Source of the DNA: Acidobacteriota bacterium
GTDB taxonomy: Bacteria > Acidobacteriota > Blastocatellia > Pyrinomonadales > Pyrinomonadaceae
Direction of reading: 5' to 3'
Assembly: GCA_003223975.1 (NCBI GenBank)
Contig: QHXS01000035.1
Location: forward strand, 1-32,143
DNA: 32,143 nucleotides
The notes under the pieces are model-generated. The model did no database searches and had not been told where the DNA came from. It was given only the letters and a program-made list of their open reading frames with translations. This document shows, piece after piece, positions 7,045 through 31,220 of this stretch. Every line of letters starts with the position of its first letter. Position 1 is the first letter of the stretch. Made by a program: the position numbers and the translations under genes.

Positions 7045-7048
7045 AAGC

Positions 7049-7124
7049 GTCCAGAGAGTCTTGGGAGTCCGGAGAGTCCGGAGAGTCCCGAGAGTCCCGA
7101 GAGTCCCGAGACTCCCGAGAGTTC
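7049..7124. repeat. 9-bp minisatellite (GAGAGTCC type), left bracket of 4HB gene
   Basis: At least seven near-identical 9-mers run from 7062 to 7124 (TGGGAGTCC, GGAGAGTCC twice, CGAGAGTCC twice, CGAGACTCC, CGAGAGTTC). They are preceded by GTCCAGAGAGTC. The same unit appears in inverted orientation at 7537-7575 on the other side of the four-helix-bundle gene. The array fills the gap between that gene and ybbP. Confidence 0.88.
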
Positions 7125-7128
7125 AAAT

Positions 7129-7497
7129 CTATCGAACGTTCCTCAGGTGTTTGGTCAGGCCCATTGTCATCCGCGAAATCTCGTCTAGTTCGACGTAAAG
7201 TTGTTGAAAATCGGCTTTCGCCAAATAACCCAGGTCCATCGCTACATACGCGTGGGATTGAGTTTCCGCGACGGAGCCATGAGCAATATTTAAGAAACTC
7301 GAAAACTCTTTGTCGGATCGACGACCAAAGCCTTCGGCAACGTTTGCCATGATCGACACACTGGATCTTCTGATCTGATCGCGAAGTCCAAAATCCTTCG
7401 AAAAATTGCCGCCGCTTGTGATCTGGTAAATCCTTTTAGTCACTTCTCGCGCTCTTTGCCAAACGATAAGATCTTCAAATCTTTCAATCGTAGCCAT
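7129..7497 (-). CDS. Four-helix bundle protein (S23 / 23S rRNA IVS-encoded type)
   Basis: A 122-residue protein if begun at the ATG 7495-7497, which has GGAGAG six bases upstream. The track's longer start adds 16 residues without family support. The family hallmarks are clear: [11 protein letters not shown] at the N-terminus, [27 protein letters not shown] in the middle, and the [19 protein letters not shown] helix. These proteins form pentameric helical bundles. They are found in 23S rRNA intervening sequences, as accessory (Avd-like) proteins of diversity-generating retroelements, and as scattered orphan genes; the molecular role of the orphans is not settled. Here it interrupts the ybbA-ybbP pair and lies between inverted 9-bp repeat arrays, which suggests insertion by transfer. 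Confidence 0.93.
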
Positions 7498-7536
7498 TCT
7501 TCTCTCTCCAAATTTCTGTCCAATTGTATTTACAAT

Positions 7537-7575
7537 GACTCTCAAGACACCCCAGACTCTCCGGACTCTCTGGAC
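7537..7575. repeat. 9-bp minisatellite, right (inverted) bracket of 4HB gene
   Basis: Four 9-mers in phase (GACTCTCAA, GACACCCCA, GACTCTCCG, GACTCTCTG) followed by GAC are the reverse complement of the array at 7049-7124. CAGAGAGTC-type ends match exactly (GTCCAGAGAGTC against GACTCTCTGGAC). The array encodes the C-terminal tail RESGESGVS of the YbbA-like ATPase and contains its stop codon. Confidence 0.82.
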
Positions 7576-8237
7576 CGGTCTTCGACAACCGCTCCGTCTT
7601 TCAAGACTATCTGCCTTTCCGCTCGGCGTGCGAGTTCGATGTCGTGCGTAACCAAAACCAGCGTGACTTTATTCTTTCGGTGCAATTCGGTCATTAGATC
7701 GAGTATGTGCCTACCATTTTTTGAGTCGAGGTTTCCAGTCGGTTCGTCCGCTAGCAAGATCTTTGGCGAATTGGCAAATGCACGCGCGACGGCGACACGC
7801 TGCTGCTCGCCGCCCGAAAGTTCCGAAGGGTAATGATGCCCCCGATTCGTCAGATCCACATCTGCGAGCAGTTTGTCCGCTCGCGATGCAGGATCGCTGA
7901 CGCCCAATATTTCAAGCGGAATAAGAACATTTTCATACGCCGTCAAACTCGGAATGAGGTGGAACGATTGAAAAACGAAACCGATCTTTCGGCTTCGAAT
8001 ATCGGCAAGGCCGTCTTCGCTCATCGACGTGATCTCTTCGCCGTCGATCGAGATCGTACCCGAGGTCGGCGCGTCGAGCCCTGCGATCAGGCCGAGCAGT
8101 GTCGATTTGCCGCTGCCCGAGGCGCCGGTGAGCGCGACAAACTGCCCTTCGGGTATTTCGATGGAAACATCCGAAAGGATAGTCAGGTCGTCGCTGCCAG
8201 AGCGGACGGTTTTTGAAACGCGGTTGATGTCGATCAT
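7542..8237 (-). CDS. ybbA: ABC transporter ATP-binding protein (YbbA/LolD-like)
   Basis: A 231-residue ATPase (E. coli YbbA is 228). I start at the ATG 8235-8237 giving [11 protein letters not shown]; the 49 residues added in the track have no family match. Walker [10 protein letters not shown], the Q-loop region [18 protein letters not shown], the signature [14 protein letters not shown], Walker B ILLADEP and the switch VTHD are all present. It belongs to the LolD/MacB/FtsE class that pairs with FtsX-type permeases. The partner permease is next but one downstream; the 4HB gene lies between. The last nine or so residues are encoded by the minisatellite and differ from a normal family tail. 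A candidate promoter TTGTCG-17-TTACAT lies upstream on the minus strand. Confidence 0.95.
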
Positions 8238-8370
8238 ACAAATTGAATCGTGAAGCGAATATGCAAAAATGTAAAATCGCCGCGCGAATACCGACAATCT
8301 AGTGCGGCGATCGAAACCGGAAGTTCGCGAACATTTGCAGCGGCCGCTACGTAAAACGCATCTAACCGAT

Positions 8371-9051
8371 ATGAAGCAATTCATCCATTTCCTGATATTG
8401 GCCGTGATCGGTGCCGCCTCGTTCGGCTGCAGCGTGAAAAGCGCCGAACAGATCGACGTTGATGGAAAGCCGCTCGTCCTGCCGAAAAGCGTTGCAGCAA
8501 AGCCGAAGATCGTAGCGTTTGGCGACAGTTTGACGGCCGGGTTCGGTTTGGAAGAGACAGAATCCTACCCTTATTTGCTTCAGCAGAAATTGAACGCCGA
8601 GGGCTACAACTACGAGGTCGTAAACGCGGGCGTTTCCGGAGATACCAGTATGGGCGGCCTCGAGCGCATTGATTGGACGCTTGAGAACGACGGCGTTCAG
8701 GTGCTAATCCTCGAACTTGGAGCAAACGATCTTCTGCGCGGCCTTTCACCCGCAAAAATGAAGGATAATCTTGACAAGATCATTCGAAAAGCGAAAGCGA
8801 AAAACGTAAAGGTGTTGCTATGCGGGATGCTCGCACCGCCGACGCTTGGTGCCGATTATCAGCGCGATTTTGCCAACGCATTTCCCGACCTTGCCGACAA
8901 ACACAAGGTCGCATACCTGCCGTTCCTGCTCGACACGATCGCCATGAAAAAGGAGCTCAACCAGGCCGATGGCATCCACCCGAATGCGCAGGGGACCAAG
9001 ATCATGACGGAGAACGTTTACAAAGAGCTAAAGCCGCTTCTCGTTAGATAA
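8371..9051 (+). CDS. tesA: SGNH/GDSL arylesterase, TesA-like (lysophospholipase L1)
   Basis: A 226-residue exported esterase. The start at 8371 gives a short signal sequence MKQFIHFLILAVIGAASFGC; the Cys at about 20 makes a weak lipobox, so it may be a lipoprotein. The TesA blocks are intact: block I IVAFGDSLTAGFG with the catalytic Ser, block II VVNAGVSGDTSMGG with the oxyanion Gly, block III LGANDLLRG with the oxyanion Asn, and block V DGIHPNAQG with the Asp-x-x-His pair. Enzymes of this type hydrolyse acyl-CoA, lysophospholipid and aryl esters in the periplasm. It is divergent from ybbA, the same layout as tesA-ybbAP in E. coli, which argues for a functional link. Its stop is 3 bases from that of the convergent next gene. 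Confidence 0.93.
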   Translation: MKQFIHFLILAVIGAASFGCSVKSAEQIDVDGKPLVLPKSVAAKPKIVAFGDSLTAGFGLEETESYPYLLQQKLNAEGYNYEVVNAGVSGDTSMGGLERIDWTLENDGVQVLILELGANDLLRGLSPAKMKDNLDKIIRKAKAKNVKVLLCGMLAPPTLGADYQRDFANAFPDLADKHKVAYLPFLLDTIAMKKELNQADGIHPNAQGTKIMTENVYKELKPLLVR

Positions 9052-11025: not shown

Positions 11026-11092
11026 AACAACTTGTTTGTCCGCTCACATTTGCCGGACAAGCCCCGGACAAGCGGTGGACAACGTGCGGACA
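11026..11092 (+). promoter_or_regulatory. Operator-like array: dyads plus four GGACA repeats at 11-bp spacing
   Basis: AACAA-C-TTGTT (11026-11036) runs into TTGTCCG (11036-11042), which is inverted against CGGACAA (11054-11060). GGACA then recurs at 11055, 11066, 11077 and 11088, an exact 11-bp period, so the copies face the same side of the helix. The array ends about 50 bases before the permease start. Confidence 0.55.
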
Positions 11093-11143
11093 GATCCCGA
11101 TTCGACCAGCACCGCTCGCTCCGTTAGAATAATCCTTTTGCCC

Positions 11144-12247
11144 ATGGATAGCCTTGTATTTTCAAACATGATGCACCGGCCGGCGAGGACGATCGTCAGC
11201 ATCGCCGGCATCGGCATCGGAGTTTTGTTGATCGCGTTCACTATCGGCCTTGCGAACGGCAGCCTCCGCGAGCGAGCGAAGCGCGAATCGAACGTCGGCG
11301 CCGAGATCATGTTCCGGCCGTCGGGAAGCATCGGCTTGACCGGATCGGATGGAATGCGTCTGCAGGCTGCGCTGGTCGATGACGTGAAAAAGGTTGACGG
11401 CGTCGCCGATGTCGTACCGATTGGGCAAAACAGCGTGCGTGCCGAAGACGGCATCACGGGCAGCAGACTAGTAGATGGCATTCCATACGCAGACTACGCG
11501 CGGGTTGCCGGGCTGCAGGTGATCCAGGGCCGCGAGTTTGTTGAGGGCCGGGACGAGATGATGTCTGACACGGCCTGGCTCGCGAACCGAAAGCTCAAGA
11601 TCGGCGATCATTTCAGCATCTACGAACGCGACTTTGAGATCGTCGGCACATACGAGCCCAGCGTCGGAGCGCGGATCAAAATTCCGCTGTCGACAATGCA
11701 GGCCCAACTTGGTGCTGAAAATCGAGCATCTGCATTCCTTATCAAGATCAAGCAGGGCTTTACGCCGCAGTCTGTCGGTGAAGCCATCTCGAACCAGTTC
11801 CCGAAATTTCAGGTAATGCTTACAAGCGAATTGGAAGAACTTTATATGCAGGGCGTCCCTGCACTGAACGTATTCCTCAATGTCGTCGTTGCCGTCGCCG
11901 GCGGCATCAGTGCTTTGATAATTTTGCTCACAATGTACACGACCGTTACCGAGCGAACACGTCAGATCGGCGTGCTCAAATCGCTAGGGATGTCGAAGAC
12001 GAAGATCGCTATCACCATTTTGCAGGAGGCTCTGCTTATCACATTTGCGGGCGTTATCTTCGGCGTCGTTGGTACCTTCGTTTTGAAGTTCCTGCTTTCC
12101 AAATGGACAACGCTGCAGGTTGAAGTGGACCCGCAGCTTGTTTTCAATATCCTTATCGTCGGGCTGGTCAGCGGCACGATAGGTGCACTTTATCCCGGAC
12201 TGCGGGCTGCACGGCTCGATGCGGTCGAAGCCCTCAACTACGAATGA
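11144..12247 (+). CDS. ABC transporter permease, FtsX/MacB family (no adjacent ATPase)
   Basis: A 367-residue protein if begun at MDSLVFSNMMHRPARTIVS, which gives the typical short cytoplasmic start before the first membrane span; the 36 residues added in the track lack support. Topology is classical: one N-terminal span (about 18-38), a periplasmic MacB-type domain (about 40-240), and three C-terminal spans in the FtsX domain (about 245-365). The coupling motif ERTRQIGVLKSLGMSKTKI and the ending PGLRAARLDAVEALNYE are standard. The ATPase that should drive it is not encoded nearby. The stop overlaps the next start by 4 bases (ATGA), so it is translationally coupled to the glycosyltransferase gene. 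The ATG lacks a good ribosome binding site. Confidence 0.92.
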   Translation: MDSLVFSNMMHRPARTIVSIAGIGIGVLLIAFTIGLANGSLRERAKRESNVGAEIMFRPSGSIGLTGSDGMRLQAALVDDVKKVDGVADVVPIGQNSVRAEDGITGSRLVDGIPYADYARVAGLQVIQGREFVEGRDEMMSDTAWLANRKLKIGDHFSIYERDFEIVGTYEPSVGARIKIPLSTMQAQLGAENRASAFLIKIKQGFTPQSVGEAISNQFPKFQVMLTSELEELYMQGVPALNVFLNVVVAVAGGISALIILLTMYTTVTERTRQIGVLKSLGMSKTKIAITILQEALLITFAGVIFGVVGTFVLKFLLSKWTTLQVEVDPQLVFNILIVGLVSGTIGALYPGLRAARLDAVEALNYE

Positions 12248-13977
12248 CCGCGGACCAGATCTCAACAGCCAATATCAATCCAACCACTTATTTCCGAGAA
12301 GGCGGCATCCTCGTGGGAAGGTTTGCGATCGTCGCGCTTTTGACAATATTCGTCATCGGCGGCTTCTGGCTCCGCGCGGTTAATCTGAGCGACGAAAGCC
12401 TCGGCGAGGACGAATGGAAAAAGCTCGAAAGCGTCGAAGACTATCGGGCGCATGGACTGACGGGTGCTAATGGCGAACATCCGCTGTTTCTCAAAGGAAT
12501 ACTCACGATCTCGGTTGTCGTCGCGGAGCGGTGGAATTCGGCGTTCGCTCAGAATAACGAATCGCTTCAGATACCCGTTGAAACGGCATTGCGTTTGCCC
12601 GTGACGATCTTCGGAGCGTCGAGTGCCATTCTTATTTTCCTGATCGGGGCGGAATTATTCGGGATCGAGGTCGGCCTCATCGCTGCCGGTCTGTGGGCCT
12701 TCGACCCTTCCGCTATCGGCTTTGCCCGGATAGCAAAAGAAGACGTCATCATGACGTTTTTCTTTATGCTCGCGAGCGTGTTTCTGCTCCGTAGTCAGCG
12801 GGTCGCGGAAACAACGCGTGGCAATTACATGAAGTGGATGTGGCTAACCGCCGCAGCTTTCGGCGCGCTGATGGCAACAAAATACATGCCGCATTTTCTG
12901 GCGATCGCCGCGGCCTATTACTTTACGTTTCAGGCATTGCCCACGACGAAATGGCGGCTCGGCCAAAAACGCTGGCTGATATTTCTCATCATTGTCGGCG
13001 TTTCATTCCTGGTATTTAATCCGACCATTCTGTTGCCCGACACGTGGCGAGCGATCGCGGCCTTCGTAAGCGAAAACCGAGTCGGCTACAAGGTTGAGAG
13101 CAGCTATGAATATATGGGCGTGATCTATCGAAATAAGCTCACGCTTTGGCTATTCGGGGTTCCGTGGCATTTTTATTACGTTTTCATGGCGGTGAAGCTG
13201 CCATTGACGACGATCGCCGGCTTTCTCATCGGACTAGTTCTCATGTTTCGGCGCCAGCTCGGTGACGGCCGTTATTTCCTTTTTTGGTGGTGCTTCTTTT
13301 GGTTTTGGCCTTTCACAGTGTTGGGCGGCAAATTCCTTCGCTATTTTGCATTTCCATTGCCGGCGGTAATGTTGATCGCGGCGATCGGTATCGCTTTTGT
13401 CGTGCGTCAGGTCACATATCGCCTCGCGAAAAATGGGTCAGATAACATTGCGGTCCGCAATGGAGTATTTGCCGCCGTTCTTTTGACAGCTACTGCGATC
13501 CCACTGATCGATTCGATTCGCGTAACGCCGCATTATCGGCTCTACACAAATATTCTGGGCGGCGGAATGGCGGAGGCCGGGAATTATTTCCCACATGACG
13601 AGTTTTTCGATTCAAGGCTTGGAGAAGCAATGAAGTTTGTTGCCGCCAATGCAGTACCTGATGCTCGAGTCTACAGCGAAACCGCCAAATTGACGGAATA
13701 TCACTTGCATCGATTGGGTCGCGACGATATCAAATCCGTGTGGCTCTCCGACCCTTCGGAGCTTGCACATATGCGTCCGGGTGACGTGGTCATCGACGCA
13801 CGCGGTCGCAGATACATTAGCAACAATGCTTTTCTCAAGCGACTCGAAGAGGTCTCGATGCCGGCCGAGATCGTCAGTCTCGGGGAAGTTCCAGCTGTCG
13901 ATATTTACGTTATTAACGAACAGTCACTAAAGTTATTGGTATTACCATTGCAAAGCAGGGATACTCCTGATTTGTAG
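12244..13977 (+). CDS. GT39/ArnT-like membrane glycosyltransferase
   Basis: A 577-residue polytopic protein with about ten membrane spans over residues 25-430 and a soluble C-terminal domain. The first extracytoplasmic loop carries acidic residues (SLGEDEWKKLESVEDY), the position of the catalytic Asp/Glu in GT-C enzymes. A second PMT-like element follows (AFDPSAIGFARIAKEDVIMTFFF), in which family members carry an acidic residue after the fourth span. Such enzymes move a sugar from a polyprenyl-phosphate donor to protein, lipid A or another carrier on the outer face of the inner membrane. Donor and acceptor cannot be told. The ATG overlaps the permease stop by 4 bases; the GMC oxidoreductase starts 71 bases after its stop and probably shares the transcript. 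Confidence 0.85.
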   Translation: MTADQISTANINPTTYFREGGILVGRFAIVALLTIFVIGGFWLRAVNLSDESLGEDEWKKLESVEDYRAHGLTGANGEHPLFLKGILTISVVVAERWNSAFAQNNESLQIPVETALRLPVTIFGASSAILIFLIGAELFGIEVGLIAAGLWAFDPSAIGFARIAKEDVIMTFFFMLASVFLLRSQRVAETTRGNYMKWMWLTAAAFGALMATKYMPHFLAIAAAYYFTFQALPTTKWRLGQKRWLIFLIIVGVSFLVFNPTILLPDTWRAIAAFVSENRVGYKVESSYEYMGVIYRNKLTLWLFGVPWHFYYVFMAVKLPLTTIAGFLIGLVLMFRRQLGDGRYFLFWWCFFWFWPFTVLGGKFLRYFAFPLPAVMLIAAIGIAFVVRQVTYRLAKNGSDNIAVRNGVFAAVLLTATAIPLIDSIRVTPHYRLYTNILGGGMAEAGNYFPHDEFFDSRLGEAMKFVAANAVPDARVYSETAKLTEYHLHRLGRDDIKSVWLSDPSELAHMRPGDVVIDARGRRYISNNAFLKRLEEVSMPAEIVSLGEVPAVDIYVINEQSLKLLVLPLQSRDTPDL

Positions 13978-16663: not shown

Positions 16664-17773
16664 TTAAGCTTCCTCAGACGCGGGTTCAGTTCCCGGTTTT
16701 GCAAGGCTCTTGGCTCCTCTGTCAACCGTTCTCCATAAAAGGATCGCAAATCCGAAACCTGCCCAGAAGAGGATCGCTCCACGGCGAATCAATGCCAGAG
16801 CGACACCGATCGCGGTCGTGTATCCGAGTGCCTTCAGGATTATTCCATTACCACCTTCGTACACACCGACAACCCCGGGGATGAAACTGAACGCGGCATT
16901 GATCACTTTCGTTAATGATTCGATGATATAAGCGTGCGAAAACGTTGGAGTGTATCCGAGCAAATTCAGTCCGAGAAATACCTCGAGCACGCTGGTTACA
17001 TGAGCCAGAAATCCGAGCCCAAGCAGCGAGTAAAAGAGCGTCGGCCGCTCGTTGTAAACGCTGTAAACGTTTGTCTCTATCTCATGGATGTACTCGCGTC
17101 GAGTCGCTACAAAACCCGGCAGCCAACCCCGCTTGTCTAAACGCTCCAGCACGAAACTTAGAGGCCGCGCGTTGAACTTTACGACCAGGAACATGCCGAC
17201 AAGCATGACTGTTGCGGCGATCCCTACCCCGATCAGCGTATAACGAATGACCTTGCCATTCGCGCCGACTGTCAGGGCCATAAGTAATACGCCGCTCAGC
17301 ATCATCAAGGCCACGGAAACGTAATACATGATGTCGTCTACGATCACGGCTGCCGCGCTGCGGGCAAATGAAACGCGGTTTTTCAACATCGCCGCCTTTG
17401 TAGCTTCACCAAGAACCGGACCGGCAAAGGTCATAAGGTTCATCGCCTCGCCCGCAAGCCGCGCAGCTAGTACGTTGTGATAGCGCACGTTTCGATGTTC
17501 TTTCGGGATCGCAAGATAGATGCACAGTGCCCGGATGAGGTGCCGTGAGAAATTTGTTCCCACGATTATCAGGAATCCCCAACCTATTTGACTAATAGTT
17601 TCGGTTATAACGCTGAATCCGATCTTGTAAAGCACAAAAACGAGCAAACCAAGCCCAGCGGCAAATACCATCCCCTGGATCAAGATCAACTTACCTTTTA
17701 TTGCGGGTTTTGAATCAGGCTCTTCGAACGGGATATGTTCGGTTTCCGATGCGAGTAATTCTTCGTTAGTCAT
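16664..17773 (-). CDS. Flippase-like LPG synthase transmembrane domain protein
   Basis: A 369-residue membrane protein with about eight spans after a 25-residue cytoplasmic N-terminus. Recognisable family features are the RHLIRALCIYLAIP segment, the LAARLAGEAMNLMTFAGPVLGEATKAAML block, and the C-terminal FSFIPGVVGVYEGGNGIILKALGYTTA with RRGAILFWAGFG. This is the lysylphosphatidylglycerol_synthase_TM (UPF0104, AglD/HpnL-like) superfamily, in which members flip or move aminoacyl or polyprenyl lipids. There is no aminoacyl transferase domain, so it is not a full MprF. It is convergent with the glycosyltransferase/GMC/SDR operon, which also suggests envelope lipid work. No clear ribosome binding site precedes its ATG. 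Confidence 0.88.
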   Translation of the reverse strand: MTNEELLASETEHIPFEEPDSKPAIKGKLILIQGMVFAAGLGLLVFVLYKIGFSVITETISQIGWGFLIIVGTNFSRHLIRALCIYLAIPKEHRNVRYHNVLAARLAGEAMNLMTFAGPVLGEATKAAMLKNRVSFARSAAAVIVDDIMYYVSVALMMLSGVLLMALTVGANGKVIRYTLIGVGIAATVMLVGMFLVVKFNARPLSFVLERLDKRGWLPGFVATRREYIHEIETNVYSVYNERPTLFYSLLGLGFLAHVTSVLEVFLGLNLLGYTPTFSHAYIIESLTKVINAAFSFIPGVVGVYEGGNGIILKALGYTTAIGVALALIRRGAILFWAGFGFAILLWRTVDRGAKSLAKPGTEPASEEA

Positions 17774-17927: not shown

Positions 17928-17957
17928 TTGACAGAAATTTCAGTTCAATAATATGAT
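17928..17957 (+). promoter_or_regulatory. Strong sigma-70-like promoter of the secreted two-gene module
   Basis: TTGACA (17928-17933) and TATGAT (17952-17957) are separated by 18 bases. The -35 is perfect and the -10 matches five of six. Predicted transcription start is near 17964, leaving a leader of about 110 bases. Confidence 0.75.
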
Positions 17958-17976: not shown

Positions 17977-18012
17977 TACCACGAATCTTCATCATGCCGT
18001 TTATTCGTGGTA
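17977..18012 (+). promoter_or_regulatory. Leader hairpin (10-bp perfect stem)
   Basis: TACCACGAAT-16 nt-ATTCGTGGTA forms a perfect 10-bp stem within the predicted 5' leader of the 18077 gene, followed by a T-rich stretch (TTATTTGCAGATAATTTT). It may be an attenuator-like element, an mRNA stabiliser or an interspersed repeat of the CACGAAT type. Confidence 0.5.
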
Positions 18013-18076: not shown

Positions 18077-20131
18077 ATGAATTTGTTGGAATTCACTTAT
18101 TTTAAGAATGCTTCGGCGAAGTTCGCGCTTGTCGCGTTAATGTCCATTCTCTTGGGCAGCGTACCGGCTCGCTCGCAGGATCTTCTAAATAAGACCGGCT
18201 CCGTTAGTGCCCCAACAACATCCGAGGAAGCCAAACTTCCGTTTTCGGTTGAAAAGATAAATATCGAAGGTGGCGCTGAATTGATCACGATCTTTTATCG
18301 AATGAACGGCACGTTCGATAAGCCCGACGCGGACGGTGAGCGCCGTCCGGTGCCGCTTGTAAGCGTCTTACGAGACACCCTTGGCGACGATCGTGATGAA
18401 AACGACAAACTGCGATACTTGTGGATGCTCACGTACACCAAACCGACCACGTCTCAGCGGCTTTTTTCGATGATCCCTTTTTTCTATAAACGGGGTTCGT
18501 CGAAGCTGGATGCCGGTAAGTCGGTTCCACCCACGATAATGAATTTTGCCGGTTCTGGAATGGGCATAGAACCTATTATCTGGGAAATGCTGACGCGGAG
18601 TTGGTTCGGTGCTGCCGGTGATAAAGTAAAGCTGATCTACGGGCCGTTTCGCGGAAATCGCGAGGCTTATAAGAAAGCGGCGATCACTGAAGCCATGACC
18701 ATCATTTCGCTTTACCAACAGGTCGCGGGTGAGAACGGATTGAATGATCTCGAATTACTCGACCTGCAGACGAGGTTGGGCCTGACCGACAAAATGTTTG
18801 GCGGGATGATGCAGCAGGCTAATTTCCTCCGGGCGAATGACAAGATGTTTCTTGAAGGAGCGGCTAACCGAGGCCAGACGCGCGAATTGCTCAGGCGGTT
18901 TACAGAGGCTGCAGGTCTCTATTTCCAGCCGCTTGAAATGCCGAATGGCGACGCGAAACATGCGATCGCCTGGGTCTTTAAGGAAGATCTGGAAGCCAAC
19001 AAGACTCGCGCCTGGAATGGCCGGTTTCTAAATATCAAAAATCCTTGGGATGATGAGCGATTGCGGAATTGGAAAGGCTATTCGGAGGTTCGGTGGTTTG
19101 ACTCTGAAAGTCGCGAAGTAGAACCAAACACGCCCGGCGCGGTGAGCAAAACGCTTATTCCTTTGGCGGTGTACGGGCTTGACCATCCCAAAGTTCCGAT
19201 CATCTTAGTCGATTTCCGCGATGCTGGTAATCCAAAAAAGCGCGAAATGACCAAACGCGCGCTCGACGATATGATGGGGAATGTATTTTCGCTGTCACAA
19301 GGCGGTGGAAGGGCACTCGCTTACGGACGATTCATTTACAACTTCGTCACCGGCCGGCGTGGAACGGACCTTAACCAACCAACTCGCGTCCGCGCTTATT
19401 CGCAATTGAAAATGATCCTTGCGATGGACGAAAGCCTGAACGAAGACTTTCGTAAGGAAATTGAAACACGATTGGAGAAAGTTTCACTGAATCCGCTGGA
19501 TAACGATCTTGCAGCGGAAATGAATTTAGCTCGTAGCCAATACAAGAACCTCGTCGAATACGCGAAGAGTCCTGACGGACTTCGGCTAAAACTCGAAAAG
19601 GACCGTATACGAGAAATGACGCTTGCGGCCCATGGTGGCAAGATGCCTCTGGGCTATACGATAGCGAAATACCTCACCTTCGGATTGTATGAACATAACG
19701 TGAAACCCACACCGGAATTGATGGCTAAGGTAGATATTCGGCGGCAACTTGATTTCCACGAGCGCAAAATACGCGAAACCGCCTTTTATTCCGTTCGTCC
19801 CGAGATCGATGCCAACGTGAACGAGCTGATGCGATCGCTTACGTTCGTCGCGCAAAATGGTGGTCTTGCCAGCGAAAAGACGGCCGTAGCCATCGGAAAG
19901 ATCTTTACCGCGTCCGAAGAAGACGACATTCGAAATGCGTGTCTGGCCGGACTCTTCAAGATAGATAATAAGGGGGCAAAGGAAGTGCTCACCGCGATCA
20001 ACAATAATCAAAGATTTGAACCCCGGTGGCGCGAGGCGGCATCTGAATACCTAAAGCGTTCCAGAGCCGAAGGCCAAAGCGTTTCGAAACGCGATGGGGC
20101 AATTACAACAGATCTCCAACCTCAGCACTAA
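18077..20131 (+). CDS. Secreted hypothetical protein with HEAT-like C-terminus (684 aa)
   Basis: An exported protein: the N-terminal hydrophobic segment KFALVALMSILLGSVPARSQ ends in a plausible signal peptidase I site. Residues about 40-520 are mixed alpha/beta and I do not recognise them. The segment around 420-520 is helical, with a possible hydrophobic-poor coiled region (RKEIETRLEKVSLNPLDNDLAAEMNLARSQYKNLVEYA). The last 100 or so residues (ASEEDDIRNACLAGLFKIDNKGAKEVLTAIN) look like HEAT-type helical repeats. The ATG is preceded by TTAGGAC, a weak site. The next gene, an alkaline-phosphatase-superfamily protein, starts 15 bases after its stop, so both are one transcript and probably act together in the periplasm or outer face. 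Confidence 0.85.
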   Translation: MNLLEFTYFKNASAKFALVALMSILLGSVPARSQDLLNKTGSVSAPTTSEEAKLPFSVEKINIEGGAELITIFYRMNGTFDKPDADGERRPVPLVSVLRDTLGDDRDENDKLRYLWMLTYTKPTTSQRLFSMIPFFYKRGSSKLDAGKSVPPTIMNFAGSGMGIEPIIWEMLTRSWFGAAGDKVKLIYGPFRGNREAYKKAAITEAMTIISLYQQVAGENGLNDLELLDLQTRLGLTDKMFGGMMQQANFLRANDKMFLEGAANRGQTRELLRRFTEAAGLYFQPLEMPNGDAKHAIAWVFKEDLEANKTRAWNGRFLNIKNPWDDERLRNWKGYSEVRWFDSESREVEPNTPGAVSKTLIPLAVYGLDHPKVPIILVDFRDAGNPKKREMTKRALDDMMGNVFSLSQGGGRALAYGRFIYNFVTGRRGTDLNQPTRVRAYSQLKMILAMDESLNEDFRKEIETRLEKVSLNPLDNDLAAEMNLARSQYKNLVEYAKSPDGLRLKLEKDRIREMTLAAHGGKMPLGYTIAKYLTFGLYEHNVKPTPELMAKVDIRRQLDFHERKIRETAFYSVRPEIDANVNELMRSLTFVAQNGGLASEKTAVAIGKIFTASEEDDIRNACLAGLFKIDNKGAKEVLTAINNNQRFEPRWREAASEYLKRSRAEGQSVSKRDGAITTDLQPQH

Positions 20132-20146
20132 ATTCAAGAGAAATAA

Positions 20147-22645
20147 ATGTTCTCGTATTCAAGGTTTATCCGCCCGGTATTATTTTGCACTCTGATCGCG
20201 TTAATCGCCGGATTCGCAAATGCGCAGGGCGTAAAGCGCCTGGTATTGGTAAAGATCGATGGCCTTCCGTTCGATTCGGTAGATAAGTACGTCAAGATCA
20301 AAAATTCAGAAACCGGTAAGTCGACATTGCCGTGGTTTGACGAGATCTTTTATAAGAACGGTTCGCGTGTCGAGAATTTTTACACTCGCGGCATCAGCCT
20401 TTCCGGACCTGCGTGGGGAATGCTTGATACCGGACAGCACATGCAGATAAAGGGAAACGTCGAATTCGACCGGTTCACGCTTCAGACATACGACTACCTT
20501 CGTTTTTTCGCCTTCTATCTCGACAATTTCCGAAAGAAGCGTGCAGATATGCCGGCCGCCGAGGTAATGTCGCAACTGCAAATACCGCTTCTTGTCGATA
20601 TGTTTCCATTCGACAAGCGGTATCACAGCCCCCAGTTATATCAACGCGATAACCGATGGTTGAATCAGCTTGGAAGTGGATTCATTAACTTGTTTCCGAG
20701 GAACCCGATCGACCTGATGAACGAGTATTCAATGGGATTCGAGTTTCTCGCAATGACCATGAAGCAGAACGAGCGTGACATTGCTGATCGGGTCATCACA
20801 CAACCACAGATCGATTATTTCGACTATTACGATACGGCGTTTGACCACGTGATGCACGATAACAACGACGAGCGTTCACGGCTGATCGAGCTGAAAAAAT
20901 TGGACACGACACTTGGGCGCTTTTGGACCGGGATCCAGAGATCATCTCGTGCAGATGAAACCGCTCTGGTTTTGCTTTCGGATCATGGCTTTAACGCCGA
21001 ACAAGGGATCTTCAGCCAGGGATTCAATTTGGTAACAATGTTAACGGGAGCCGAGGGTGGCGGGCATCATGTGATGACCAAGCGCCGGATCCTTTTAGAT
21101 TATTCAGTACAGGGCGTCAACCCGCTTGTACCGGCAATAATCACGCCTTCGAAGGATACGTATTACCTCAAAGGTCAGCATAAAGAATATCCGACAGCTC
21201 TAGTGGATTTTGACGGAAACGAACGTTCCTCGATCCATTTGCGAGAGAGCGGGCTGAATGAGATGCACATTTTGTTGCAGCAGCTTCAGCGAAATGATCT
21301 CTCTCCTGAGTTGCGTCAAGCTGCGACGGAAGAATTCTTTGAGATCGTCGACGACCACCGAAACCATTGGCAGACGTCGGCTGATCAACTGACCGAAGAG
21401 CTAGACGCGCTTCAACGATGGATCGATACGACGGAAAAGTTGATACAAACGCTGCCGAAAAAGTTTACGCCTGCTGAGATCAACTTAGGACTCGATAAGG
21501 AACCAAGGCGGATCGAAGGCCTTGTTCGCTCCGAAAAGCAGAACATTCTGGAGTACAGGAATTATGTCGGTACGCTTCGAAATCTTCTGAAGCTTGACCG
21601 AACCAATTTCAAACCCAGTTCACTAAAGATCGAAGAGCTGATCGCGCCCGGTTCGATGGGGCGATCGAATTCGATCTTTCAAATGCAAAATTATGTAGCC
21701 GGGCTGAAACCTGGTGGGATGACTTCGGGATCCAATGGTATAGATTTCGAAAAGAGCTTTCAAACTGTTAACTATTTTCAGTTGCTAAAACAACAATCGA
21801 TACGCAGTAATATGCAGCCGAAAGTCAGCAACAAGCCGATCGATTTCATCGCAATACGCGTTCCGCTCGAGACTATCGTGAGCGAATTGCCGGATGACCT
21901 CAGGCCGAACGACAATCCGGTTTGGCTTTACGGAGGCGAAGATAAGCAGGTGCTGATCCTCACTCGTAAGACCGAGAGCGGTAACATTTCGCTACGTTAT
22001 TTGCCGGTGTCAGGCCTGAAGCAGGATGCAAATGGGAAACTTACGTTCAAGATAGAAGAGATCGCCGAAGGATTTCCGCTCAAGATCTTCGAAGACCCGG
22101 ATGTCGCCATTCCAGCCGATCAACGATCTGCGTGGCTCGGAGAATGGCACACGGAGATCGAATGGCTCCACGCTACCCACAAAGGTAAATATTCGAATGC
22201 GGTGATCGGCTTGAACGAGCAGCTTGACCGCCATCCTGTTTTCGACGACAACGAACCGAACCTGACTTCGGATGAAAAGCTGATCCGCCGATTTCGCAAC
22301 CGTCAGCGTCAATTGACCGAGTCGGACATGTTGATCCTTGCGAACGACCACTGGAATTTTGACATCCGCGGATTTAATCCCGGCGGCAACCACGGCTCGT
22401 TTTTCAGGGTATCGACGCATGCCACCTTTATGCTGGCAGGCGGACCGAAAACCGGAATACCTAAGGGCCTGGAGATCGACGAACCCTACGACAGCCTTGC
22501 GGTGATGCCGACGATCCTGAGGCTAATGGGACGGGTCGATAAAGACAACAGGCCGGATCCGGAATTGTACAAAATGGGCTATCGACGATTTCCGGGACGC
22601 GTCGTCAGCGAGGTGCTCGGCGGTCAGACGAGTTCGGTCAAGTAA
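20147..22645 (+). CDS. Secreted alkaline phosphatase superfamily (phosphodiesterase-type) protein, 832 aa
   Basis: The signal peptide ends FANA-Q. Core motifs of the alkaline phosphatase/nucleotide pyrophosphatase superfamily follow in order. They are LVKIDG with metal ligand D38, GISLSGPAWGML with a nucleophile candidate S84 or S86, FDHVMH with D233 and H237, and LLSDHGF with D279-H280. A GGGHH segment comes next. A long helical region of about 400 residues then separates these from NDHWNF (D734-H735), GGNHG (H749) and the family-like ending HATFMLAGG...YDSLAVMPTILRLMG. The final metal His would normally lie close after the SDHG motif, so the core looks split by an insertion or partly duplicated. 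Substrate unknown. The gene follows its 684-aa partner by 15 bases and overlaps the convergent pgi-type gene by 22 bases. Confidence 0.85.
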   Translation: MFSYSRFIRPVLFCTLIALIAGFANAQGVKRLVLVKIDGLPFDSVDKYVKIKNSETGKSTLPWFDEIFYKNGSRVENFYTRGISLSGPAWGMLDTGQHMQIKGNVEFDRFTLQTYDYLRFFAFYLDNFRKKRADMPAAEVMSQLQIPLLVDMFPFDKRYHSPQLYQRDNRWLNQLGSGFINLFPRNPIDLMNEYSMGFEFLAMTMKQNERDIADRVITQPQIDYFDYYDTAFDHVMHDNNDERSRLIELKKLDTTLGRFWTGIQRSSRADETALVLLSDHGFNAEQGIFSQGFNLVTMLTGAEGGGHHVMTKRRILLDYSVQGVNPLVPAIITPSKDTYYLKGQHKEYPTALVDFDGNERSSIHLRESGLNEMHILLQQLQRNDLSPELRQAATEEFFEIVDDHRNHWQTSADQLTEELDALQRWIDTTEKLIQTLPKKFTPAEINLGLDKEPRRIEGLVRSEKQNILEYRNYVGTLRNLLKLDRTNFKPSSLKIEELIAPGSMGRSNSIFQMQNYVAGLKPGGMTSGSNGIDFEKSFQTVNYFQLLKQQSIRSNMQPKVSNKPIDFIAIRVPLETIVSELPDDLRPNDNPVWLYGGEDKQVLILTRKTESGNISLRYLPVSGLKQDANGKLTFKIEEIAEGFPLKIFEDPDVAIPADQRSAWLGEWHTEIEWLHATHKGKYSNAVIGLNEQLDRHPVFDDNEPNLTSDEKLIRRFRNRQRQLTESDMLILANDHWNFDIRGFNPGGNHGSFFRVSTHATFMLAGGPKTGIPKGLEIDEPYDSLAVMPTILRLMGRVDKDNRPDPELYKMGYRRFPGRVVSEVLGGQTSSVK

Positions 22646-24306
22646 TCGAACCCAAAGTCCGCATCCTTCGAAAAATGGATCCGCAAAGCCCGGCGGCCGC
22701 GATCTAAAAGAACCTGAAAATCACCCCGTGCTTGCGCTGTGTTAACAACGCCAAACGTATATTTTTGCCCAGGGATCGATAGCTCGGTCTCGTCTTCAGA
22801 AGTGATCTGCAGAAATACTCCCGTGTTCGGGCCGCCTTTGTAAGCCTGGCCGGTCGAATGCAAAAACCTCGGTCCGAAGCCCAAACAGGTTGCAGGTAAG
22901 TATTTTTCCAATACGCGTCGCCGTAAGTCTTGCAGGGTCGATTCGTTCCCTGAGTTCATTTCGACATAGGCTAACATCCCAAAATAATCATGCTCTTCGA
23001 TCGTTGCTAGGTGCGCAGATAGGAATTCAACGATGCCGCGTTCGTCGACCATTTGGCGCAAGCGGTTCGCGTGTTGTTCAGATGTAAATAGCTGAATACC
23101 ATTTGATTCAAAAAACGGAGTCTCCTCAGAAAGCGAGCCGGTTCTTTCATATTCGTCGGTTATTTTCCTTGCTTCGATCTTCGCTGATTCGACGTCTGGT
23201 TGATCGAAGGGGTTGATCTGCATGATCGAGCCGGCCACCGCGGTCGCAAATTCCCACCGGAAAAATTCTGCCCCAAGGTCGTAGAGGTCATTTATCGATA
23301 TCTCGATCACAGGATGCCCTGCTGCAAAAAGTTCCGACAGGTCTGGCCCACTATCGCTTCCGTTAAACTTCAAATTTACGAACACACGGTCGTCCCCGTA
23401 ACTTACGGCCGGCTGTATCGGCTCACGGTCGACCGGGATAATAGCAACGCCATTTTTCCCTGTCGATTCTGCGATCAATTGTTCGAGCCATGCTCCGAGA
23501 TCATGGATCTCCGGCGACGTGAAAATGGTCAATTTGTCGCGTCCGATGCCGTGGCAAATCCCAAGGATCGTACCGAGAACCAATCCCGGATTTGACTGCG
23601 GATCTTCATTTCGACAAGCACCTCCCATTTCCGACCCCGGTCGCAACAAACGTTCGACATCCAGGCCCATTGCTGCGGCCGCGGTCAACCCGAACGCCGA
23701 AAGCGCCGAATACCGTCCGCCGATCTCCGGTTTTCCGTAGAAGATATGTCGAAATCCATCCGACTTTGCCGCCGCTTCCATTTTCGATCCCGGATCGGTG
23801 ATCGCAACGAAGTGCTTCCCGGCGTTTTCCTTGCCGACCGTTTGCGCAACGCGGTCAAAAAAGTACTGTTTGAAACAATTTGGTTCGAGCGTTGATCCGG
23901 ATTTGCTCGCGACGATGAAAAGCGTTTTCGCAATGTCGATCTTCGACTCGACGGTTTGCACCTGCGACGGGACGGTAGAATCCAAAATGTGGAAATTCGA
24001 TCTGTTAAATGTGAGTGCGAGAACTTCCGGGCAAAGCGAAGATCCGCCCATTCCCATCAAAAGTACGTCTTTGAAATCTGCTCGTTCGATATCGGCAGCA
24101 AGTTCGCGATACTTTTCGAGATGAGCCAATTCCTCATCAGCAATCGTCAGCCAGGCGAGCCATTTTGATTCGTCTGCATTTGTCCAAACGCTCGCATCCT
24201 TCGCCCAAATTCGCGACACGATATTCGAGCTCCGCATGGCCGCCAACTTCGCATTTAAAGCGAGGTCGAGGAGTTCAGGAAGCGAATAGATCATCGAAGG
24301 CAGCAT
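22624..24306 (-). CDS. pgi: Glucose-6-phosphate isomerase (stand-alone form of Tal-Pgi half)
   Basis: A 560-residue SIS-fold isomerase that interconverts glucose-6-phosphate and fructose-6-phosphate. The first SIS domain shows LLMGMGGSSLCPEVLAL and ASKSGSTLEPN, the phosphate-binding loops; the second shows STGKNG and the C-terminal HSTGQAYKGGPNTGVFLQI, which includes the family's conserved lysine. The N-terminus (AMRSSNIVSRIWAKDASVW) resembles the linker of bifunctional transaldolase/Pgi proteins, but no transaldolase domain precedes it here. I start at the ATG 24304-24306; the TTG before it is the track start. A promoter lies only about six bases upstream, so the mRNA may be leaderless. The 3' end overlaps the convergent phosphatase gene by 22 bases. 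Confidence 0.93.
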   Translation of the reverse strand: MLPSMIYSLPELLDLALNAKLAAMRSSNIVSRIWAKDASVWTNADESKWLAWLTIADEELAHLEKYRELAADIERADFKDVLLMGMGGSSLCPEVLALTFNRSNFHILDSTVPSQVQTVESKIDIAKTLFIVASKSGSTLEPNCFKQYFFDRVAQTVGKENAGKHFVAITDPGSKMEAAAKSDGFRHIFYGKPEIGGRYSALSAFGLTAAAAMGLDVERLLRPGSEMGGACRNEDPQSNPGLVLGTILGICHGIGRDKLTIFTSPEIHDLGAWLEQLIAESTGKNGVAIIPVDREPIQPAVSYGDDRVFVNLKFNGSDSGPDLSELFAAGHPVIEISINDLYDLGAEFFRWEFATAVAGSIMQINPFDQPDVESAKIEARKITDEYERTGSLSEETPFFESNGIQLFTSEQHANRLRQMVDERGIVEFLSAHLATIEEHDYFGMLAYVEMNSGNESTLQDLRRRVLEKYLPATCLGFGPRFLHSTGQAYKGGPNTGVFLQITSEDETELSIPGQKYTFGVVNTAQARGDFQVLLDRGRRALRIHFSKDADFGFDYLTELV

Positions 24307-24312
24307 CAAAAC

Positions 24313-28120: not shown

Positions 28121-28180
28121 ATGTTCTTTTCAGAAGTAAAAGGAAATCGAACTTTAACAACCTGTCATCGTTTACGCTTT

Positions 28181-29833
28181 ATGTTCACAAATCCCTTCAG
28201 AATTCTCTGCATTATCTTGATCGTCTTTGGTTTTTCGGTCGCGCAGATTCCCGACAAGCAGAAGGTCGTCGCCGGGGCGGAACGAGCGCTTGAAAGGGCT
28301 GCTAAGACAAATTCGATGCCCGCTCCCGGCTGCGCCGTCGGCGTTTCCGTTAATGGCGAATCGGTATTTGAAAAAGCGTTCGGTCTTGCAGAAATGGAGC
28401 ATAATGTTCCGAACACGGCACAAACCATATTTGAATCTGGCTCGGTGGCTAAGCAATTCACGGCTGCCGCTCTTGTTTTGCTCCAGCAAGAAGGGAAATT
28501 GAGCATCGACGATCCGGTTCGGAAATACATCCCGGAATTGCCCGATTACGGAACGCCTCTGACGATCCGACACATGCTTAACCACACGGCTGGGCTTCGC
28601 GATTGGGGGTCTGTGATGGAGCTGACAGGAGCCGGACGCGGCGACCGGGTCATAACTCAGGACATCGCATTGGATGTGATCGCTCGTCAGAAAGCGTTGG
28701 ACTTCGCGCCCGGCGCCGAATATTCCTATTCGAACAGCGGCTACAACCTGGCGGCGATCATTGTCGAACGTGTTTCAAAGCAGAAATTTGCGGACTTTCT
28801 AAAGGAACGTATTTTTAAGCCCCTCGGCATGAACCATTCGTCAATTCGTGACGATTACAGGCGGCTCGTGCCCGGGCGGGCCCAAGGCTATTCAAGATCG
28901 GGTGCGAACGGGCCCTGGATGCTGAACATGCCGATCATGAATGTCTACGGCAATGGCGGGATCCTCACCACGGTCGGAGACTGGTTGAAATGGAATGCGA
29001 TGCTTGATTCGCGTTCGATGGGAGCGCCGTTGGTCGAAGCACTCGAAACGCAAGGCGTTCTTAACGACGGACGAAAGATCACGTATGCATTGGGGCTCGT
29101 TGTTGACTCATACAAGGGCATACGGCAGATCGGCCACAATGGGGCGACCGCTGGCTATGTTACCGCGCTTGGCCGCTACCCCGATCAGAAGTTGTCCGTT
29201 GCGGTGCTGTGTAACGGAAGCGCGATGGATCCCAACGAACTTTTGGAAAGCATTGTAGACGAATCACTGGGGCCATTTCCGTCGTCTCCGGTCCAGACGC
29301 CAACGTTTGTAAAGCTGTCGGAAGACCAATTAATGAAGTTTGTAGGCACATGGCGAAACGAGAAAACAAGGAATCCAAATCAGATCATTCTCGATAATGG
29401 AGAACTCAAGATCAACGGTGGATCGCTAAAACCGATTTCCGAAGACGCGTTCATGCTCGGCGAACGGAAAGCAAAATTCATCTCTAATAAGGACGGGCTC
29501 GCGAGCGTGATGGAGATCGCGAACACCGACGGCTCGATGACTCGGCTTTTGTTCGAGCGGGAATGGAAACCGACCGACCTGAATGAATTTGCAGGTGATT
29601 GGTACAGCGAAGAAGCGCAGTCGCGGATTTCCATCGCCATCGAGAACGGCAGTGCAATCCTGAATTTGCGGCCCGTGCTGCACTTCCAGCTCAGGCCGGT
29701 CTATCGAGACGCATTTAGCGGCCAGGGCTTTACATTGTGGTTTACCCGTGACCCATCGGGAAAGATAACCCAACTTCACGTCGGCGGCCCGCGGATGCGA
29801 GATATGCTGTTCACACGCGCACTCTCACGGTAA
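28181..29833 (+). CDS. Secreted serine hydrolase, beta-lactamase family (class C-like)
   Basis: I begin at the ATG 28181, which gives a normal signal peptide MFTNPFRILCIILIVFGFSVAQ; the ATG at 28121, right after the previous stop, adds 20 residues and is the alternative. The penicillin-binding/beta-lactamase fold motifs are SVAK (S88-x2-K91) in FESGSVAKQFTAAAL, YSN (Y183) in EYSYSNSGYN, and HNG in RQIGHNGATAGYV. Such proteins are esterases, D-aminopeptidases or transpeptidase-like enzymes more often than true beta-lactamases. After about residue 375 there is a long extra beta-rich C-terminal domain (to 550), unlike the shorter neighbour at 29844. The next gene starts 10 bases after the stop. 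Confidence 0.9.
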   Translation: MFTNPFRILCIILIVFGFSVAQIPDKQKVVAGAERALERAAKTNSMPAPGCAVGVSVNGESVFEKAFGLAEMEHNVPNTAQTIFESGSVAKQFTAAALVLLQQEGKLSIDDPVRKYIPELPDYGTPLTIRHMLNHTAGLRDWGSVMELTGAGRGDRVITQDIALDVIARQKALDFAPGAEYSYSNSGYNLAAIIVERVSKQKFADFLKERIFKPLGMNHSSIRDDYRRLVPGRAQGYSRSGANGPWMLNMPIMNVYGNGGILTTVGDWLKWNAMLDSRSMGAPLVEALETQGVLNDGRKITYALGLVVDSYKGIRQIGHNGATAGYVTALGRYPDQKLSVAVLCNGSAMDPNELLESIVDESLGPFPSSPVQTPTFVKLSEDQLMKFVGTWRNEKTRNPNQIILDNGELKINGGSLKPISEDAFMLGERKAKFISNKDGLASVMEIANTDGSMTRLLFEREWKPTDLNEFAGDWYSEEAQSRISIAIENGSAILNLRPVLHFQLRPVYRDAFSGQGFTLWFTRDPSGKITQLHVGGPRMRDMLFTRALSR

Positions 29834-29843
29834 CGATTGAATT

Positions 29844-31220
29844 ATGAAACTGGCATATCCACTTTTATTGCTTCTGCTTTTTTGTGGCTCACTTCTCGGC
29901 CAGAGTTCGATTGAACGGTCGGTGGACGATTTCATAAAGGCCGAGATGGAGCGGCAAAAGATCCCGGGCGTTTCGCTCGCAGTGGTAAGAGATGGAAAGC
30001 CTTTGATCGTAAAAGGTTACGGCTTTGCAAATCTTGAGCATCAAGTTCCGGTCAAACCTGAAACGATCTTTCAATCCGGGTCGATGGGCAAACAGTTCAC
30101 AGCATTTGCGGTGATGCTTTTGGTCGAAGAGGGAAAGATCGGCCTGGAAGAAAAGATCAGCAAATATCTTGGGGATGTTCCGCCAGCCTGGTCGAACATC
30201 ACAATACGCCACTTGCTGACCCATACAAGCGGTATGACCGATTATCCAGACAGTTTCGATTTCCGCCGCGACTTTACCGAGGACGAACTCCTGAAATGGG
30301 CGAAGGAGGTTCCGGTAGCTTTTGCCCCGGGTGAAAAATGGCAGTACAGCAATCTCGGCTTTGTTACGTTAGGACTGATCATTCACAAGGCATCTGGCAA
30401 ATTCTACGGCGATCTGCTGCAGGAGCGCGTGTTCAAACCGCTTGGAATGACGACGGCGAGGATCATCAACGAGGCTGATGTCATCCCCAATAGGGCCGCT
30501 GGTTACAGGTTGGACAAGGGCGAATTGAAGAATCAAAACTGGGTGTCGCCTTCTATGAATACGACTGCGGACGGCTCCTTATACCTGACGGTGCTAGACG
30601 TGATGAAATGGGACGACGCGCTCACTAATCGCAAACTTCTGAGCACCGCGTCGTACGACCAAATGTGGACGCCGGTTAAGCTGAACAACGGCAAGACGGA
30701 GCATTACGGATTCGGATGGGCCCTTCGCGAAGTGAACGGCAAACGAGTGATCGAACACGGCGGTGCATGGCAAGGCTTCAAGTCTTTCATCGCAAGATAT
30801 CCCGACAATAATTTGACGGTTATCGTATTCGCGAATTCTTCGAACACAAATCCAGCACGGCTTGCGAACCGTATAGCAGAGATCATCGATCCGCAGTTGA
30901 AGCCATATACGATGACCGATCCGGATCCTAAACTCACAGCTGACTTTCGACAGTTGCTTGCGAACATTTTGAAGGGAGACGTCGATGAGAAACGATTCGC
31001 AGCTTCAGTTCGGCAGGCGCTCACCGATCCTACCGATCGCTTGATCGCTCACATGAAAACGATCGGCCCGATCCAGAAATTCGAACTACTTGAGCGTAAT
31101 GTTTCAGATGCGGGAGTGCTCTATCGATACAGCGCCGAATTTGGAAGCATGACGGTAAACCTGTTCATTCGCGTGGGTAAAGATGGTCGAATCGATCGTT
31201 TTGAGTTGAATCCCGATTAG
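29844..31220 (+). CDS. Secreted serine hydrolase, beta-lactamase family, second copy
   Basis: A 458-residue exported protein with the signal peptide MKLAYPLLLLLLFCGSLLGQ. Catalytic motifs are SMGK (S80-x2-K83) in FQSGSMGKQFTAFAV, YSN (Y168) in WQYSNLGFV, and HGG (H305) in VIEHGGAWQGFK. It resembles the preceding gene over the catalytic domain, with similar stretches such as LEHQVPVKPETIFQSGS against MEHNVPNTAQTIFESGS, so the pair looks like a tandem duplication that has diverged. Its C-terminal domain is shorter (about 350-458). Probable role is an esterase or peptidase in the periplasm. It starts 10 bases after the upstream stop and the dihydropyrimidinase starts 11 bases after its own stop. 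Confidence 0.9.
   Translation: MKLAYPLLLLLLFCGSLLGQSSIERSVDDFIKAEMERQKIPGVSLAVVRDGKPLIVKGYGFANLEHQVPVKPETIFQSGSMGKQFTAFAVMLLVEEGKIGLEEKISKYLGDVPPAWSNITIRHLLTHTSGMTDYPDSFDFRRDFTEDELLKWAKEVPVAFAPGEKWQYSNLGFVTLGLIIHKASGKFYGDLLQERVFKPLGMTTARIINEADVIPNRAAGYRLDKGELKNQNWVSPSMNTTADGSLYLTVLDVMKWDDALTNRKLLSTASYDQMWTPVKLNNGKTEHYGFGWALREVNGKRVIEHGGAWQGFKSFIARYPDNNLTVIVFANSSNTNPARLANRIAEIIDPQLKPYTMTDPDPKLTADFRQLLANILKGDVDEKRFAASVRQALTDPTDRLIAHMKTIGPIQKFELLERNVSDAGVLYRYSAEFGSMTVNLFIRVGKDGRIDRFELNPD

Follow-up and report, generated by a model that had tools for sequence, protein, structure and literature searches.

Do two neighbouring genes for exported proteins, one of which belongs to no family described before, work as a single system, and if so, what might this system do in the envelope of the bacterium that carries it? 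The question is raised by the window analysed here, a stretch of 32,143 nucleotides of DNA from an Acidobacteriota genome. A sequence-only reading had placed in it a secreted module of two genes, called P1 and P2 below, and had suggested an envelope phosphoester system, together with two ways to examine the idea, namely structure prediction for both proteins and a search for their co-occurrence across genomes. The features which matter in what follows are:

11036 to 12247, forward strand: MacB/FtsX-type orphan permease (ftsx; FtsX 6.7e-17, MacB_PCD 1.2e-16)
12244 to 13977, forward strand: PMT-type (GT-C) glycosyltransferase (PMT; PMT_2 2.6e-10)
16664 to 17773, reverse strand: HpnL/MprF-type integral membrane protein, divergent neighbour of P1 (lpg; PF03706 5.7e-22, HpnL 3.9e-34)
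17928 to 17957, forward strand: sigma-70-type promoter TTGACA-18-TATGAT, 5' of P1, 11 of 12 positions matching
17977 to 17986 and 18003 to 18012, forward strand: perfect 10-bp inverted repeat in the P1 leader
18077 to 20131, forward strand: P1, open reading frame for an exported protein of 684 amino acids
20147 to 22645, forward strand: P2, open reading frame for an exported protein of 832 amino acids

Both open reading frames are indeed present as proposed, with 15 bases between the stop of P1 and the start of P2. Export signals and topology were assigned by hydropathy alone, which gives each protein a single hydrophobic N-terminal stretch of the Sec-signal type (residues 12-30 in P1 and 11-29 in P2) and, near residue 360 of P1, a weaker second hydrophobic window, with none comparable elsewhere in either protein. 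The near-consensus promoter claimed for the pair holds as well, being the top-scoring promoter site of the region, and no over-representation was found for sites with 9 of 12 matches in general. The hairpin leader fared less well: the repeat itself is real, but the folding of the leader is not convincingly better than that of its shuffles (z -1.77), no such repeat is seen 5' of P1 in the closest relative, and Rfam returned no match for the leader. An RNA element was for these reasons dropped as a candidate, and the repeat, with no evidence of function, is given no weight here.

The two genes prove to be inherited together. In a set of 396 genomes from across the Acidobacteriota, P1 occurs in 22, and full-length P2, taken as a match of at least 260 bits, in precisely these 22 (the remaining P2-profile matches in the set being short or partial), and the two genes adjoin in every one of them. 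Among 60 relatives there is no P1 without P2, and only three genomes appear to have P2 alone: two of these have a divergent P1 directly upstream, and in the third, G007, the locus is cut at a contig edge. The named loci number 53, three of them cut by a contig edge, and in 47 of the other 50, P1 directly precedes P2 (L107 and L109 being counted as adjacent after the recovery of open reading frames hidden by antisense frames). In the remaining three, L097, L098 and L100, P1 is not adjacent to P2 and lies elsewhere in the same genome. P1 and P2 distances correlate with r 0.98 over 39 loci, which shows joint inheritance of the two, a correlation that shared descent alone would also predict. In other words, P1 and P2 are an obligate and conserved joint unit, as the sequence-only reading would have it, and the finding that it had named as fatal, separation of the two genes in most genomes, is contradicted by the data.

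The carriers of the pair form a patchy set within the Acidobacteriota. In one pattern scan, all named matches came from this phylum save HRbin08 and HRbin10, two bins labelled only as bacterium, and a scan of genome contigs with P1 alone gave no match. No P2 relative was found on plasmids, and the idea of a plasmid-borne pair was dropped on this ground. A defence system was likewise dropped, since PADLOC returned nothing for P1 and a weak, unrelated match for P2.

As for P1 itself, searches of Pfam, NCBIfam and the PDB gave it no match, and a profile built from 43 members of its family found nothing convincing in the PDB. The predicted structure (mean pLDDT 79) is helical in its C-terminal third and mixed beta and helical in its N-terminal part, and gave no fold match in the PDB or BFVD at E<=1e-3, by which a known fold is ruled out at this level in these two libraries. 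What does match is HEAT_2, in 4 of the 43 members when these are scanned singly, and this, taken together with the helical C-terminus of the model, lets the description of P1 as unrecognised apart from a HEAT-like end stand. P1 is, therefore, a family not described before, HEAT-like at its C-terminal end only; membership in a known and unrelated family, the other finding that could have undone the idea of a joint system, did not turn up.

P2, on the other hand, can be placed. It matches PF01663 (Phosphodiest) with 34.9 bits (1.7e-8), against a gathering cut-off of 23 bits, and all 47 aligned members of its family match this model at E<=1e-3. Seven residues, D38, S86, D233, H237, D279, H280 and H749, are invariant in the 47 sequences, and by motif they correspond to the Asp, Ser/Thr, Asp, His, Asp, His, His set of the alkaline phosphatase superfamily, so that a putative catalytic apparatus, the metal ligands and Ser86 as nucleophile, would be complete. 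The core of the structural model (pLDDT 90) is closest to the nucleotide pyrophosphatases/phosphodiesterases (NPPs), including ENPP6 and autotaxin, at E about 1e-7. The substrates of these last two enzymes are choline-lipid or lysophospholipid head groups. P2 is thus an alkaline-phosphatase-superfamily enzyme whose nearest relatives are the NPPs, and it shares with these (Xanthomonas NPP, ENPP6, autotaxin) the Pfam family, the fold of the catalytic core and the seven superfamily residues.

That said, P2 is not an NPP proper. The nucleophile motif of NPPs is T-x-P-N-H, with Thr as the nucleophile; in P2 the motif reads S-[GA]-P-[SA]-W, with Ser in place of Thr and Trp in place of the motif His. 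What is more, an insertion of some 400 residues, spanning about residues 300-700, separates the DHG motif from the last His; the NPP matches cover the core only and leave the insertion out, with a TM-score by query of about 0.22, and the obligate partner P1 is a further difference. Additional invariant residues (H307, D354, G357, N358, R360 and H668) lie in or beside the insertion. The expectation of an unusual member of the phosphatase superfamily is in this way borne out, and P2 is probably a metal-dependent phosphodiester enzyme of a new type.

What the original proposal did not capture is the extent of the module: restricting it to positions 18077-22645 leaves out lpg, PMT and ftsx, all of which are linked to the pair and lie outside this interval. 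In the genus of the window, orthologs of lpg (at least 290 bits) occur in 7 of 9 carriers of the pair and in 0 of 28 other genomes, and orthologs of PMT (at least 370 bits) occur in the same seven and in 0 of 28 non-carriers, a distribution to which the hypergeometric test assigns, for each of the two genes, a probability of 3.5e-6, uncorrected for phylogeny. The two genus carriers without either ortholog are G024 and G025, and the carriers in family f7 also have no lpg and no close PMT ortholog. In other families, too, lpg is joined to the pair, in some relatives as the immediate neighbour of P2; the arrangement of this linkage differs among f1, f4, f16, G183 and L121. The PMT gene is present in 18 of the compared loci, in many relatives directly upstream of P1. 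In the window, lpg and ftsx are separate genes; in the loci of 24 relatives, their domains are fused in one gene directly behind P2. The lpg protein is a PF03706 member by score and in this resembles the HpnL/MprF flippase domain (PF03706, TIGR03476); it differs in scoring 118 bits against the HpnL cut-off of 195.65 (TIGR03476), which places it outside HpnL, and in being often fused to a MacB/FtsX permease. In the literature that was searched, we found no paper on an HpnL-FtsX combination and none on a periplasmic pairing of alkaline-phosphatase-superfamily and HEAT proteins in Acidobacteria. We also note that a gene with a trypsin-like domain (Trypsin_2) at its C-terminal end, often upstream of PMT or P1, recurs in 21 loci of Pyrinomonadaceae (positions 3073-4632 in L079 and equivalents).

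The permease calls for some caution. It is present in all 60 relatives and is hence not specific to the module, and in G037, G045 and G057, ftsx and lpg relatives stand side by side with the pair absent. The pairing of permease and flippase must then be of greater age or wider spread than the P1-P2 module, and because ftsx is universal and such ftsx-lpg pairs occur without P1 or P2 in other families, the permease link may be a loose one.

Some lineages carry, beside the pair, genes which hint at the class of substrate. In family f4, the genes around the pair encode, among others, a CDP-alcohol phosphotransferase (F15), an Exo_endo_phos protein and a nucleotidyltransferase that is similar to one half, the cytidylyltransferase, of inositol-phosphate enzymes; F15 lies near the pair in L121 too. 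The Exo_endo_phos protein stands beside P2 both in family f4 (L045, 7989-8852) and in L118 (4620-5570) and also matches, more weakly, the C-terminal domain of PGAP2IP. We had tried NF041135 as a presence/absence marker of inositol lipids, and it proved too promiscuous, matching 36 of 36 genomes and 14 of 14 controls, for which reason an F15-specific alignment was used instead. In a comparison of 60 genomes, F15 reached at least 200 bits in 6 of 30 carriers and in 0 of 30 non-carriers (Fisher p 0.024, uncorrected for phylogeny). Phosphonate genes appear in other lineages. In L097 (3021-12953), where P2 is apart from P1, it is followed by ftsx and then by a phosphonate cluster with a PEP mutase (5e-93); this cluster comprises a PEP mutase-nucleotidyltransferase fusion, subunits of phosphonopyruvate decarboxylase, a further nucleotidyltransferase, lpg and F15, with P1 staying on another contig. 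In L149, which belongs to another family, the genes downstream of P1-P2 are those for phosphonopyruvate decarboxylase and a nucleotidyltransferase and then lpg, and ftsx lies farther on. Genes for PEP mutase, phosphonopyruvate decarboxylase and nucleotidyltransferase next to P2 (L097) or P1-P2 (L149) recall the phosphonyl tailoring (Pnt) pathways to phosphonolipids and phosphonoglycans (PMC6697681), a paper whose text makes no mention of Acidobacteria, a flippase, a membrane protein or alkaline phosphatase. The genome of the window (G000) differs from these pathways in having no phosphonopyruvate decarboxylase, strong matches to which were found in only three of the carriers tested, and it has no F15-type CDP-alcohol phosphotransferase either. 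For this reason, such genes point to a class of substrate rather than to the particular substrate in the genome of the window, and since most relatives in the family have no dedicated CDP-alcohol or phosphonate genes either, the substrate in these genomes may differ or may come from general lipid synthesis.

How could these parts work together? The reading we prefer, tentatively and with somewhat less than even confidence, is that P1-P2 is the extracytoplasmic part of a module for processing the head groups of envelope lipids, with P1 as the obligate partner; the pair probably processes the head groups of a cell-envelope lipid. In particular, a phospholipid or phosphonolipid would be made inside the cell, by CDP-alcohol chemistry where this is present, and the HpnL/MprF-type protein would move it outward. 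The MacB/FtsX-type permease, often fused to the former, would then extract the lipid and hand it over. Outside, P2, with two metals and Ser86 as the nucleophile, would cleave the phospho- or phosphono-diester of the head group and either free the head group or pass it to an acceptor, for example a glycan made with the help of the PMT glycosyltransferase; P1 would probably serve as a scaffold or a substrate-presenting subunit of P2. The direction of flow, the formation of a complex, the substrate and the reaction are all what we infer from this arrangement. Several observations speak against the reading: the missing CDP-alcohol and phosphonate genes in the genome of the window and in most family relatives, the ubiquity of ftsx, the carriers with no lpg or close PMT ortholog, and the three relatives in which P1 and P2 stand apart. 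As to the reaction, hydrolysis is favoured by the missing membrane anchor and the NPP-like core, and transfer by the glycosyltransferase and the phosphonate context. Of the envelope system first envisaged, the phospholipid-type handling is thus retained, as the neighbouring genes point to phospholipids or phosphonolipids, and the teichoic-type handling is not, as nothing indicates such a role. One can go further and imagine an undescribed Acidobacteriota pathway in which P1-P2, HpnL-FtsX and PMT flip and extract a phospho- or phosphono-lipid and deliver its head group to envelope glycans, with the supply of head groups, inositol-phosphate-like or phosphonate, interchangeable between lineages; in this full form we consider the proposal doubtful.

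Would the same observations be explained equally well in other ways? The closest rival takes P2 for a phosphotransferase like EptA, LtaS or the GPI ethanolamine-phosphate transferases, one that would bind the phospho- or phosphono-alcohol of the flipped lipid covalently on Ser86 as an intermediate and then pass it to an envelope glycan or protein. The lipid, glycosyltransferase and phosphonate genes around the pair would suit such an enzyme, as would the complete set of nucleophile and two-metal residues. EptA, LtaS and PIG-N, however, have a transmembrane domain that anchors the catalytic part, whereas the only hydrophobic segment of P2 is its signal, and the top fold matches of P2 are soluble hydrolases of the NPP type, on account of which we regard this alternative as rather unlikely. 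The sulfatases are another branch of the superfamily to be considered, as Sulfatase (PF00884) also matches 39 of the 47 P2 members and the S-x-P-S spacing resembles the sulfatase motif, with Ser86 at the formylglycine position. The motif of type I sulfatases, C/S-x-P-x-R, needs its Arg, and in P2 this place is taken by the invariant Trp90; the P2 of the window, moreover, matches PF01663 better, and a sulfatase-like enzyme is in our opinion scarcely credible.

Two explanations remain. If the role of P2 were to scavenge phosphate, as a secreted phosphodiesterase of a general kind or a nucleotide pyrophosphatase, with P1 as a partner in secretion or stability, its nearest solved relatives, NPPs which cleave nucleotide and phospholipid-type phosphodiesters, would be just what one expects; the restricted linkage to lpg and PMT, the fusion genes behind P2, the CDP-alcohol and phosphonate neighbours and the large conserved insertion outside the NPP matches would not, and they render this explanation improbable. 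One could also argue that P1 and P2 cooperate and are unconnected with lpg, ftsx and PMT, the neighbourhood reflecting the shared ancestry of the carriers. The universality of ftsx, the carriers without an lpg or PMT ortholog and the chance that the genus carriers are a single clade all speak for this. Against it, lpg is linked to the pair in f1, f4, f16, G183 and L121 in arrangements that differ, and in L097 a P2 apart from P1 still has ftsx directly after it and lpg in the cluster; mere shared ancestry therefore seems to us decidedly improbable.

The preferred head-group reading has a studied parallel in YbbAP-TesA, in which a type VII permease presents substrates to a periplasmic lipid hydrolase (PMC12646458). 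This precedent (PMC12646458) provides a parallel for the permease-to-hydrolase logic and does not imply homology of the enzymes. By working analogy, what the two share is a genetic link between a permease of the MacB/FtsX type and a periplasmic hydrolase and, as proposed here, substrates derived from the membrane. Our module differs in the superfamily of its hydrolase, in a single half-permease fused to an HpnL/MprF-type domain, in having P1 and in lacking an ATPase: instead of the dedicated ABC ATPase and the GDSL hydrolase TesA, no ATPase at all is seen among the typed neighbours of P1-P2. A separate YbbAP-TesA-like set is encoded elsewhere in the window (4519-9051), consisting of an 841-amino-acid MacB_PCD and FtsX protein, an ABC ATPase (7542-8384) and a TesA-like GDSL hydrolase (8302-9051), and in L035 and L039 such a set is likewise found close to the module.

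Acidobacteriota are abundant in soils and have unusual membrane lipids, and to our knowledge, only a small number of their envelope pathways have been described. An enzyme and a partner that are strictly inherited together, and tied to a flippase-permease fusion, offer a concrete entry point to this envelope, and one carrier of the pair, Pyrinomonas methylaliphatogenes K22 (L079), is in culture. The alkaline phosphatase superfamily gains a branch that combines a serine nucleophile with a large insertion, and P1 adds a protein family for which the fold libraries searched gave no match.

Two other regions of the window deserve mention in their own right. At positions 28121-31220 lie two tandem serine hydrolases of the beta-lactamase family, for which the closest NCBIfam model among the matches listed is D-aminopeptidase, the scores being below the cut-offs of the listed models. 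Finally, convergent with P2 at positions 22624-24309, there is a stand-alone protein of 561 amino acids, which matches only the C-terminal part of PRK09533, a model for a bifunctional transaldolase/glucose-6-phosphate isomerase.
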